The notes beneath the pieces were generated by a model, which saw only the letters and a program-made list of their open reading frames with translations, was not told the DNA's origin and ran no database searches. The position numbers and the translations under genes are program-made. From Planctomycetia bacterium (GTDB lineage Bacteria > Planctomycetota > Planctomycetia > Pirellulales > PALSA-1355), in contig JACQFF010000073.1 of the NCBI GenBank assembly GCA_016200205.1, positions 1 to 37,674 on the forward strand: 37,674 bases of DNA. The letters run 5' to 3'. Shown piece after piece: positions 1,377-37,674 of the stretch; position 1 is the first letter of the stretch, and each line of letters starts with the position of its first letter.

Positions 1377-1502
1377 CTACGACCGACCGGCGGCGCGCTG
1401 CATGATCCGCAACCTGCAGCTGGCGGATCCAGTGGTCACGCGACCGATCACGTAGGCATCGGTGCCGTCTTCGCGCAGGCGCTGGCTTCCGCTGGCCAGC
1501 CG
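1377..1502 (-). pseudogene. Possible C-terminal relic of selenophosphate synthetase (SelD)
   Basis: Reverse-strand RLASGSQRLREDGTDAYVIGRVTTGSASCRLRIM resembles SelD C-termini (LREAG..DAAVIGRV..G..GRLRI); N-terminal domains absent. Confidence 0.35.
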
Positions 1503-1548
1503 TTTGTGATGAGGGCCGAATCCCCGCTCGTCACGATCGGCGGCGGCC

Positions 1549-1619
1549 GCGGGCTTCAAACCTGTTGTGGGATCCGTCAAGCAGATTCCAGGTGGGTTCG
1601 ATTCGCATCCACTCCCGCT
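1549..1619 (+). pseudogene. tRNA-Sec-like 3' portion (anticodon TCA), 5' acceptor and D arm not identifiable
   Basis: Anticodon stem GCGGG/CCTGT with loop CTTCAAA (TCA at 1556-1558); 7-bp variable arm TGGGATC/GATTCCA; T arm GTGGG-TTCGATT-CGCAT (one mismatch); acceptor 3' strand CCACTCCC + G. No GGGAGTGG-like 5' strand found upstream. Confidence 0.55.
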
Positions 1620-1694: not shown

Positions 1695-2164
1695 TTATCG
1701 TTCGACCTGTACGGCAATCGGAATATCCTGCCGCAAGTACAGGCAAGTGCCGTTGATGCCTTCGCAAACGTAGTAAAGCGCATAGGGTGACAATCGCACG
1801 GTTCCCCGCGAGTCCTCCGGTGACTTGAGCTCGAATTCGATCGACCGGGACTCGTTCGTCTCCGGCCGATCGCCAAGGGGAGCCGTCTGCAATCGGCGGT
1901 CGGTCGTCCAGCCGGCCGGCGCCGCGACCCACAACTTGACGGGTTCGTTCTCGTTGTTCCAATGGGCGTCCGCAGCCTTGTTGGTCCGCATCGCGAGGTG
2001 TACGCGCACCGACTCGCCCGGCTTGATCCGCGGGGGCACAACCACGGCTTCCACTCATCGACGGCGCGCTGAAAATCACCGTCCTCGCGGTATCGCGACT
2101 CGTAGCGCCTCCGATACCACAATACCAGGGTGGTCACAACGGTCGCTAGACTAATTCGATGCAT
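1695..2164 (-). pseudogene. Frameshifted small secreted/anchored protein resembling the C-terminal domain of thioredoxin/NHL-type or DsbD-alpha-like proteins
   Basis: MHRISLATVVTTLVLWYRRRYESRYREDGDFQRAVDE in one frame continues as VEAVVVPPRIKPGESVRVHLAMRTNK...YALYYVCEGINGTCLYLRQDIPIAVQVER in another; frames join near 2050 (gatgagtggaag would need one extra g). Confidence 0.5.
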
Positions 2165-2492: not shown

Positions 2493-3560
2493 GTGAGACC
2501 CGCCCTTATTATTTGCGTCACCGCCGTGTTGGGGCTTGCGTGGTCTGCCGCCCGCACGATCGCTGTGGAGCCCACATCCTTCGACGCGGCGCTCCGCTCC
2601 TTTTCGGAACGATGGAGCCAAGACGATTGGGTGCCCAAGACCGGCGTGCCGAGCAGATTCATGCGGCCGCTGGACGATGACGGATGGAAAGCACGAATGA
2701 CCGCGTTCCAATCCGCGGTTCAATTCGGTGAGCGTGCCGTTGAACCGGTGCGGCAATTGCTGCGCGACGAGGACGCTTCCAAGCGTGCGCTGGCGGCTCA
2801 AGTCCTTGGATATCTACCAGCGCGGACTGCCCGCGAGGAGTTATTGCGGACCGCGCGGGAGGACGCTGAACCGGCCGTTCGGCTGTATGCAATCGACTCG
2901 CTGGGAATGCTGGGAACCGACGGATTGAACGTCGACTGGAAGGCTCTCGCAGATCAGCAGAAGAATCGTGACGCGAAGCGACATGTGACGTATGCCAGTG
3001 AGCGAGCGAACAACTTGATTGCCAAGGAAGTAATCGATCAGTTGACCTCTTGGAATGCGAGCCAGATGGACACGGCCCAAGTTGGCCAGCCTGCTCCCGA
3101 TTTTGAATTGAGCTCGGTGTCGGGTGAGAAAGTTCGACTCAGCAACTTTCGAGGAAAGAGTGCTGTCGTCCTCGTCTTTGTTTATGGCGATACGTGACCG
3201 GTCTGCCATGGTCAGCTCGCGCAGTTGCGCGGCAGATTAGCTGACCTGAAACAACTTGGCGCGCAGTTGATTTCGGTCGATCCGCACGAAGTCTATTCGG
3301 CACAGCACTTTCTCAAGGAAGTGGGAGTGGCGACCGAAGATCTCCACTATCCGCTGTTGCTCGACCCGGCCTGCGTTGTCAGTGCCACCTATGGCGTGGC
3401 GTTTCAGATGCGGATCCATACGGAACTGAGTAATCGGCCCGCGACGTTCGTGATTGATGCCGATGGGGTGATCCGCTACGCCCGTCGCGGGCAATCATTC
3501 TCCGATCGACCAGGAGCTGACCAAATCATCGAGGAGCTGAAGAGACTTGATGCCAAATAG
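2493..3560 (+). CDS. Predicted selenoprotein: secreted HEAT-repeat/AhpC-TSA (redoxin) protein with UxxC active site; Sec235 encoded by TGA 3195-3197
   Basis: GTG start with AGAGGA upstream and signal peptide (VRPALIICVTAVLGLAW); HEAT-like repeats; QPAPDFELSSVSGEKVRLSNFRGKSAVVLVFVYGDT-U-PVCHGQLAQLRGRLADLKQLGAQLISVDPHEV...RPATFVIDADGVIRYARRG; frame is continuous across a single TGA, with peroxiredoxin/thioredoxin features on both sides. Confidence 0.85.
3198..3246 (+). promoter_or_regulatory. Putative bacterial SECIS element for TGA 3195-3197
   Basis: GGTCAGCT (3210-3217) pairs perfectly with AGCTGACC (3239-3246); inner CGCGC (3218-3222)/GCGCG (3227-3231) with apical loop AGUU; loop begins 25 nt after the TGA, G at second loop position. 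Confidence 0.65.
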
Positions 3561-3616
3561 CACGCCCTGGTTTACTGCGGATGCATTGTAGACCCCGTCC
3601 TACGAGGAGGTTTCCT

Positions 3617-4270
3617 ATGCGAATTGCGATGCGCGGGCTTGCCACTGGACTTTGTTGCTGCTTGTTGTTTTCGGCCGCTCTCGCGAAACAGAAAGACGGC
3701 GAGTCGCGTCGGCCTGGACCTGAAAGTCCACGTCGCGAAGGCACACCGAAAGCTGGTGACGTGGCACCTGACTTCACGCTGGCAACACTCGATGGAAAGC
3801 AACAGGTCAGGTTGAGCGACTTTCGCGGCAAACGGCCGGTGGCGTTGGTTTTCGGATCTTATACGTGACCGCCGTTTCGGCACCAGGTTGGTGCCCTGGA
3901 GGCGATGTACGCGAAGTATCGCGGTGAGGTGGAGTTCCTCGTCGTTTACATTCGCGAGGCCCATCCCACCGACGGATGGCAAGTGCCTCAAAATGTGCGA
4001 GAGCAGATTCTGTTCGTGCAACCGAAGTCGATCGACGATCGGCAAGAGGTCGCCAAACAAATGTGTTCCACACTCAAGCTTTCGCTGCCGACGGTCATCG
4101 ACGGCCTGGACGATAAAGTGAATCAAGATTATGCCGCCTGGCCGGATCGACTGTATTTGATCGGCCGTGACGGTAAGATTGCTTTTAAGGGCGGGATGGG
4201 CCCGCAGGGCTTCCGCCCGAGTGAGTTGGAGGCGGCCATCAAAGACACTTTGTCGCAGGGCCCGAAGTAG
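3617..4270 (+). CDS. Predicted selenoprotein: secreted iodothyronine deiodinase-like protein; Sec84 encoded by TGA 3866-3868
   Basis: ATG 3617 preceded by GAGGAGG; MRIAMRGLATGLCCCLLFSAALA signal peptide; GDVAPDFTLATLDGKQQVRLSDFRGKRPVALVFGSYT-U-PPFRHQVGALEAMYAKYRGEVEFLVVYIREAHPTDGWQVPQN...RLYLIGRDGKIAFKGGMGPQGF; matches the deiodinase signature (FGS.TUPPF ... YI.EAH..DGW). Confidence 0.9.
3869..3895 (+). promoter_or_regulatory. Putative bacterial SECIS element for TGA 3866-3868
   Basis: 10-nt spacer then perfect 6-bp stem GGCACC (3879-3884)/GGTGCC (3890-3895) with loop AGGUU (3885-3889); loop begins 16 nt after the TGA. Confidence 0.75.
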
Positions 4271-14401: not shown

Positions 14402-16240
14402 GTGAGTCTCGTTGTGAGTGTCTTGATCGCCGACATTCCCGTTCCGCTCGCCGAGCAAAGGCGTCGCTGGCCGCAACAATCCGTGCTGCTGTTGGTCAAC
14501 GGCATTGCGCTATTGGCTGTGACAACGCTGCTACGGTGTTGGCACCTGGAAAACATTCCCGGCGTTAACGGCGACGAAGCGTGGTCAGGAGTTTGGGCTC
14601 TAAAACTATTGAGGGGAGACGCGATCGAGTGGCGCACACCTAGTGGAAATCCGATCAATCCCTTTTTCCTTGCTCCTTTGGCGGCGCTGCACGCGCTTTT
14701 TCCACCCTCGTTTGTGCTGCTGCGCATTACGCCGCTCATCAGTGGCCTGGTCGCTCTGGTGGCGAATTATTGTCTCTGTCGCCGGGCGTTCGACACGCGC
14801 ACGGCCGCGGTTTCGACGTTATTGCTGGCCGCGTTGCCCATCGACATTGCATATAGCCGGTTCGCATGGGACGCCAGCCAAAGCCTGTTGGCGACAGTGC
14901 TGGTCTTGTACTTGCCGCTGATTCACGGCCGCAAGTCGGTCGCCGCCGGATGGCCCGTGGCGGCGATGGTTGCGTACGCGGCGGCGATTCTGGTTCACCC
15001 AACGAACGTGTTCGCAGCGCCGCTGTTGGTCGTTCCCTTGCTGTGTTTGCATCGGGAACAGCTTCCGCGAATGCTGCAAAAAGCCTATCTTTCCGCGGCA
15101 AAATGGCCGTCCGTGGGAATTCTGGCGGCGAGCGCAGCGGCGGGTTATTTCTCATGGCCTTGGATCGTGGGACATTTGTCTCGCGTGGGCCCGCCCGTGG
15201 AGCTGTGCCGGTTCGCGGTGAATTACCTGCGACTATTTTCCGGCGCGAACGTGTACGAGTTTATCTCGGGCGCGGCTGTCGGAGCGCCGCAAGCCGACGG
15301 ATTAGCACGCTGCACGATGGCCTGCGATTTCGTATTCGGCTCGGCGGCGGTGCTGGCGCTGTGGGGGATGTATCGACGATTGCGCAATATGCCCACGCTA
15401 ACCGACTCCTGCGTGGTGGTGGGATGGTTCGTCATGGCGATGGGTTTCTGCCTTGTCGCCGGCGCTGGGGCGATTGCGCCGCATTTCGAACGCTATGGAA
15501 TTTGCCTGATCGCACCGGGTGCTTTGATCATGTCGCGCGGCCTGGCGTGGTGGATCGATCCTTGGCAGCCGCGCGGTAAGGTGTCGATGGCCATCGTCGC
15601 GATTGCGGTTTGGTTGTGGCCCGTGAGTTTCTATCTCAACTATTTCGAATTGTTCGAGCAGACGGGTGGCCGCTCGCACCGGACATTTCGGACTGCCGCC
15701 GTGGAGCCCAAGTTGGCGGCGCTGCGCTACGTGCTCGCCGAGCGCGGCTCGGTGGAGCCGGCGCGCATCGTTTGCCACGAGTGGTGGACCTATTGGCCGC
15801 TTGAATATCTGGCGTTGGGTGAAGAAAACTTGCGAGTTTTCACCTGGGACCAATGGCAATCCGCCAATGAAATGGGCGAGATTCGGCCGGCGGACAATAC
15901 CTGGTTTGTGGAATTTGCCGGCAGTGCCGCCGAAGCCGACGTGCTCAGATGGTGTGCGGCAGCCGGGTCAACAGTCGCACGCCAAACGATTTGTGACTAT
16001 GCGGAACGACGTGAAAGCGTCGAGCCTTCGAGATGCCCTTCGGGGCATCGCACGTTAGTACCCTTCGGATTGCCGGTTTCCCGGCGCACTAACATTCGCC
16101 GTTCGGCGGTCGGAAGAACTTTCGTGGGCCTGCAGCCTCTTCATCCTCGAGAAAGGCAAACCGGTCGCAAGGCCGGGACGCAAAACCATGTGTCGCGACG
16201 GGAAACCGTGGCTGCAACCTGGTTGGCGAAGGGATGTTGA
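14402..16240 (+). CDS. Polytopic glycosyltransferase family 39/ArnT-like membrane protein; called C-terminus suspect
   Basis: NGDEAWSGVWALKLLRGDAIEWRTPSGNP...PLISGLVALVANYCLCRRAFDTRTAAVSTLLLAALPIDIAYSRFAWDAS; last ~70 codons overlap structured RNA elements. Confidence 0.8.
   Translation: MSLVVSVLIADIPVPLAEQRRRWPQQSVLLLVNGIALLAVTTLLRCWHLENIPGVNGDEAWSGVWALKLLRGDAIEWRTPSGNPINPFFLAPLAALHALFPPSFVLLRITPLISGLVALVANYCLCRRAFDTRTAAVSTLLLAALPIDIAYSRFAWDASQSLLATVLVLYLPLIHGRKSVAAGWPVAAMVAYAAAILVHPTNVFAAPLLVVPLLCLHREQLPRMLQKAYLSAAKWPSVGILAASAAAGYFSWPWIVGHLSRVGPPVELCRFAVNYLRLFSGANVYEFISGAAVGAPQADGLARCTMACDFVFGSAAVLALWGMYRRLRNMPTLTDSCVVVGWFVMAMGFCLVAGAGAIAPHFERYGICLIAPGALIMSRGLAWWIDPWQPRGKVSMAIVAIAVWLWPVSFYLNYFELFEQTGGRSHRTFRTAAVEPKLAALRYVLAERGSVEPARIVCHEWWTYWPLEYLALGEENLRVFTWDQWQSANEMGEIRPADNTWFVEFAGSAAEADVLRWCAAAGSTVARQTICDYAERRESVEPSRCPSGHRTLVPFGLPVSRRTNIRRSAVGRTFVGLQPLHPRERQTGRKAGTQNHVSRRETVAATWLAKGC
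16140..16240 (+). promoter_or_regulatory. Cyclic di-GMP-I (GEMM) riboswitch-like aptamer
   Basis: aaaGGCAAACCggtcGCAAggccgGGACGCAAAacc matches the GEMM core (GGCAAACC-GNRA hairpin-GGGACGCAAA); P1 candidate CATCC/GGATG (16142-16146/16232-16236); P3-like arm with GAAA loop (cgacggGAAAccgtgg). Confidence 0.8.
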
Positions 16241-37472: not shown

Positions 37473-37583
37473 AGAGCCTATCCGCTCGGACAAGGGGACA
37501 GTCCCATTTTGCTCCCCGACCATCCTGCGGATGGTGCCCGCCGCAAAATCGCGACAGTCCCCGACGGTTCTCGGACAGGCTCT
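37473..37583. repeat. REP-like imperfect palindrome
   Basis: Nested inverted arms: AGAGCCTATCCG (37473) / CGGACAGGCTCT (37572); ATTTTGC/GCAAAAT; perfect ACCATCC-tgc-GGATGGT (37519-37535); GGGGAC/GTCCCC. Confidence 0.8.
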
Positions 37584-37584
37584 T

Positions 37585-37605
37585 AGTTCGACTTTTGCAC
37601 TTTTT
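37585..37605 (-). repeat. 21-bp inverted repeat partner of 115-135
   Basis: agttcgacttttgcacttttt, exact reverse complement of 115-135. Confidence 0.95.
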
Positions 37606-37616
37606 CTGGAGCGTGA

Positions 37617-37674
37617 ATCGCGAATATGTCGGACAAAACGAGGCCCGAGCGAAGTTTCTGCAACCCCCGGTGCC
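37617..37674. repeat. 58-bp terminal direct repeat, identical to 1-58
   Basis: Exact identity to the window start. Confidence 0.98.

Follow-up and report, generated by a model that had tools for sequence, protein, structure and literature searches.

Within selB, remnants of the tRNA-Sec gene selC have been described in Sinorhizobium meliloti pSymA and in Rhizobium sp. NFR07 (Mukai 2021, PMC8124441), and in the case of pSymA a selC is also present elsewhere (PMC8124441). A human tRNA-Sec pseudogene was discussed in PMC5330540. In Pseudomonadales, horizontally moved selA-selB-selC with a flanking selenoprotein gene, fdhA, was described (Zhang 2006, PMC1794560). The open-access literature searched yielded no account of a scar in which selD, selB and selC are combined.

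Here, a stretch of 37,674 nucleotides (the window) from the genome of a Planctomycetia bacterium (4.96 Mb, 328 contigs, 95.8% complete) was analysed. Window 1380-1619 is, with high confidence, the scar of a complete selD(-)-selB-selA-selC(+) locus that formerly neighboured two selenoprotein genes and was collapsed by two deletions. Alignment to the intact sel locus on contig C221 of the same genome establishes what the selB and selC pieces are and how they are ordered and oriented. The features are listed in the table.

Table. Features of the scar, its neighbouring selenoprotein genes and the intact sel locus (window coordinates unless a contig is given)
Feature	Position	Strand	Remarks
Probable selD C-terminal fragment (RLREDGTDAYVIGRVTTGSASCRLRIMQRAAGRS)	1380..1481	-	stop 1377-1379
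selB fragment, codons 345-371	1479..1559	+	end of beta-barrel region, TIGGGR motif; reliable to ~1550
selB/selC junction zone (GGCGGCGGCCGCG)	1539..1551	+	selB and selC alignments overlap
3' part of selC	1539..1619	+	D loop to GCT just past 3' end
AhpC/TSA-type selenoprotein gene	2493..3560	+	in-frame UGA at 3195
Deiodinase-like selenoprotein gene	3581..4270	+	in-frame UGA at 3866
SelD fusion protein	C221 6925-9180	-	751 aa
selB	C221 9312-11273	+	
selA	C221 11339-12790	+	
Intact selC	C221:12868-12963	+	tRNA-Sec model, ARAGORN

The selC piece held the UCA anticodon arm, the variable arm, the T arm and the 3' acceptor strand. It was identical to the intact selC (G000:C221:12868-12963) at 75 of 81 bases (window 1539-1619, E 7e-29), the match spanning the D loop to the 3' end, and to the selC of G023, an order-level relative used as the third party in the comparison, at 73 of 81. 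The feature is derived from selC, with a match beyond chance. Its anticodon loop was CTTCAAA (UCA), seven bases long, on a stem GCGGG/CCTGT with two G-U pairs; a 7-bp variable arm (TGGGATC/GATTCCA), a T arm with one mismatch and the 3' end CCACTCCC-G followed. All of the tRNA-Sec-like parts that an earlier note had placed at 1549-1619 were present in the sequence. The end of that interval was retained and its start was moved upstream, the selC part beginning at 1539 to ~1542. The same note had seen no 5' acceptor strand or normal D arm, and this was borne out: no 5' acceptor partner was present in the scar sequence, the upstream bases belonged to selB, and the 18 of them compared with the missing selC 5' end matched at 6 positions, about the chance level. 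It had also proposed a covariance-model search, an ARAGORN run and a search for an intact selC elsewhere. The Rfam tRNA-Sec model (RF01852), run on 1300-1800 (501 bases) at a permissive threshold, gave its best match at 1511-1616 with 31.2 bits (E 2.7e-4), under the model cut-off of 47 bits; the intact selC, which was found on C221, scored 67.3 bits and was called as tRNA-Sec by ARAGORN. ARAGORN called no tRNA over the window, the scar included. The scar would probably make no working tRNA.

The missing 5' half of the tRNA is, judged from the alignments, selB coding sequence and not degraded selC. SelB of the same genome (653 residues) matched window 1479-1559 by tblastn over residues 345-371, with 23 of 27 residues identical (E 4e-9), and its gene matched by blastn at 64 of 81 bases (E 2e-15). 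The selB of G023 matched the piece as well (52/61 bases), and a nucleotide search of relatives placed the bases upstream of 1539 in the interior of selB (C221, G023). The selB frame was intact and stayed open through the tRNA part; the intact frame suggests that the collapse was late relative to divergence. The selB and selC alignments overlapped over ~1539-1558, in an ambiguous zone containing GGCGGCGGCCGCG, and since selB and selC are alike across it, the position of the breakpoint cannot be refined further. Junction homology was assessed on the sequences of relatives in place of the lost pre-deletion sequence.

In the intact loci selD lies on the minus strand next to selB, and therefore selD was sought on the minus strand beside the selB piece. 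The best match of the genome's own SelD in the first 6 kb was at window 1481-1401 (-), with E 0.068; there, 13 of 27 residues were identical to SelD residues 725-751, the exact C-terminus. Pfam and NCBIfam gave no match on this short peptide. Since the SelD model match ends short of the C-terminus in the loci listed, a C-terminal profile was built from relatives instead. This profile ranked the 1380-1481 peptide first in the window, with E 0.0042 in a set of 3086 ORFs (136 kb of sequence), and in the unrestricted search one apparent chance peptide in G023 scored similarly. With the profile restricted to the expected place, the peptide scored 16.3 bits, and 0 of 20,000 dinucleotide shuffles reached 14. 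Strand and position agreed with the intact loci, and 1380-1481 is probably a piece of selD.

Two further reading frames adjoin the scar. A carboxymuconolactone decarboxylase/AhpD-like gene with a CQYC motif (836-1370, +) ends 6-7 bases before the SelD-like stop. A reading frame at ~1695-2079 (-), which lies after the scar and before the selenoprotein genes and ends in YALYYVCEGINGTCLYLRQDIPIAVQVER and a stop, resembles a C-terminal gene fragment; perhaps it represents further decay at the scar site.

The intact locus on C221 has the order selD(-) selB(+) selA(+) selC(+), and SelD, SelB, SelA and selC are arranged likewise, in order and in relative orientation, on contig C111 of G023. The scar pieces follow this native order and strand, firmly for selB and selC and probably for selD. 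The C221 SelD, beside selB on the opposite strand, is fused to an N-terminal pyridine-nucleotide-disulphide oxidoreductase; the G023 SelD has 355 aa. C221 holds the only complete selA of the genome, and is unlikely to be a contaminant, given that its composition agrees with the bin.

The scar measures ~240 bp compared with ~6.0 kb for the corresponding stretch of C221, so that two internal deletions would have removed ~96% of the locus. One would have extended from the C-terminus of selD up to codon 345 of selB (~3.3 kb on the C221 map), and the other from near codon 371 of selB to the D loop of selC (~2.5 kb), with selA wholly lost. The GGCGGCCGC-like stretch common to selB and selC at the junction suggests a short-homology deletion, and the second deletion most likely occurred via this short similar stretch, GGCGGCCGC, in both genes. 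The scar locus may have been dispensable because the divergent intact selD/selBAC of C221 would supply Sec-tRNA and SelB. The scar is probably without function. The mechanism of collapse is ordinary, and the genomic fossil is clear.

Both UGA genes lie ~1 kb from the scar. The first matched Pfam AhpC-TSA (5e-28, UGA read through), and six relatives at 46-52% identity carry one in-frame TGA each. The second matched T4_deiodinase (5e-35), and one TGA is present in all relatives listed and in the genome's own paralogue on contig C84. In light of the in-frame UGA and the relatives with one in-frame TGA, both genes very probably encode selenoproteins, presumably served by the intact C221 system. 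Against public genomes, the deiodinase protein found seven distant loci. In a non-exhaustive look at the relatives sampled, these two genes were not seen beside a sel locus. The C84 paralogue (G000:C84:8389-8880) would encode a second selenoprotein of the deiodinase-like type (72% identical); it has an in-frame TGA and is cut off by the contig end. C84 was considered as a paralogous selenium island and rejected, as only the deiodinase gene is common and no SelA, SelB or SelD match was found on that contig.

Elsewhere in the window, a c-di-GMP-I riboswitch at 16145-16230 (+) scored 48.1 bits, above the Rfam cut-off, and was the sole match at curated thresholds. It lies upstream of a Tad/Flp pilus cluster comprising prepilin peptidase, CpaB, secretin, TadZ, T2SSE and two T2SSF. 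The window ends (1-~140 and 37564-37674) fall within a MITE-like dispersed element of ~190 bp, present in near-identical copies, with terminal inverted repeats of ~24 bp (CTAAGTTCGACTTTTGCACTTTTT...AAAAAGTGCAAAAGTCGAACTTAG). A 58-bp core of this repeat had 17 exact matches on 16 contigs; the element appears to have been active recently, and its presence at both ends explains the contig ends. A circular contig or plasmid with a selC attachment site was rejected, since the 58-bp identical window ends are this dispersed repeat.

Several other origins of the scar were weighed. A duplicate of the C221 locus, made recently in this genome and then deleted, would account for the identical gene order and the 93% selC identity. 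However, the three sequences were roughly equidistant: over selC, scar and C221 shared 75 of 81 bases, scar and G023 73, and C221 and G023 73, and over selB the corresponding counts were 57, 57 and 54 of 72. Furthermore, the scar agreed with G023 against C221 at 3 selC and 8 selB sites (11 in total). It is thus not a recent C221 copy, and such a duplicate is unlikely. The scar locus is, on this evidence, a second locus, either an ancient paralogue or one acquired separately, an old duplication being a possible source. In a selC tree, scar, C221, G023 and G223 grouped together, without strong support. The nearest relatives in the genome set, G001 (same genus) and G002 and G003 (same family), had no tRNA-Sec above 52 bits, a range shared here by other tRNAs with long arms, no TIGR00476 SelD, and only general EF-Tu type SelB matches. 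Around this genome, the Sec trait is thus patchily distributed. A sample of 398 genomes from the order and 395 from the phylum yielded neither a closer donor nor a second example of the scar. In composition, the window was somewhat atypical over its first 12.5 kb (mean r 0.40 vs 0.54-0.67 for core contigs), which is compatible with a foreign origin of the DNA and is not proof of it. An assembly or binning chimera might be suspected, as the genome is a fragmented MAG; yet an assembler is unlikely to fuse two genes over a similar stretch of ~9-20 bp, the scar pieces are not C221 copies, the outer borders change too, the window-end repeat is present on 15 other contigs of the bin, and C221 fits the bin in composition. 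We regard a chimera as very unlikely.

The earlier note had offered a degraded or recombined selC copy, a former selenium locus, a tRNA 3' end left by integration and a tRNA whose 5' half is divergent. The former two agree with the present results, in that a partial selC similar in sequence to the intact one is fused to a piece of selB and, most likely, one of selD, arranged as in intact sel loci; the latter two found no support. Fragments of tRNA 3' ends typically serve as attachment sites, and integration into selC is known, so that the piece has the form expected of a remnant left by a selC-targeting integrative element. However, no integrase or transposase was found among the window ORFs scanned by Pfam, the identity continues beyond the anticodon arm as far as the D loop, and the left border enters selB and the SelD-like end in native order instead of foreign DNA; an attachment site is accordingly highly improbable. 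The intact UCA loop of seven bases and long variable arm, with the selB frame open through the tRNA part, could also fit a working tRNA-Sec whose 5' half is unusual, or the nesting of selC in selB reported for Alphaproteobacteria (PMC8124441). This is the least credible of the alternatives: the scar has no complete acceptor stem or D arm, its 5' half is protein-coding selB, it scores 31 vs 67 bits, its T stem has a mismatch and its predicted fold energy is -36 vs -46 kcal/mol for intact selC. In the reported nesting a whole tRNA lies at the SelB C-terminus, whereas here a partial selC follows SelB residue ~371.

The collapse of a complete sel locus by deletion is therefore preferred. One complete Sec system may, tentatively, have been displaced by a divergent one: two loci would have coexisted, with the one linked to its client genes then lost and the unlinked one taking over the decoding of the same UGA genes. 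If true, this would be a traceable displacement of a genetic-code-expansion system. Sec use is patchy among bacteria, a pattern attributed to repeated gain and loss, and to our knowledge the intermediate stages are rarely seen. The scar preserves such an intermediate, with a sel locus erased beside its client genes and a divergent copy sustaining the trait. A weak tRNA-Sec match became readable as a multi-gene fossil once its flanks were examined.

Compared with known systems, the scar resembles the rhizobial remnants (PMC8124441) in that what is left of a bacterial selC is fused to selB in the sense direction, with selC elsewhere as in S. meliloti. However, those remnants are selC 5' halves at the SelB C-terminus that arose via nesting, with a transposon in pSymA, whereas here the selC 3' part is joined to mid-selB by deletion, with a trace of selD. 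Like the human tRNA-Sec pseudogene (PMC5330540), it is a dead extra copy with a working gene elsewhere, but the human pseudogene is a retrotransposed copy of a eukaryotic tRNA and the scar a collapsed multi-gene bacterial locus. As in the Pseudomonadales loci (PMC1794560), Sec machinery stood beside a selenoprotein gene in a lineage where the trait is patchy; those loci are intact, whereas here only a scar adjoins the selenoprotein genes and transfer is not implied.
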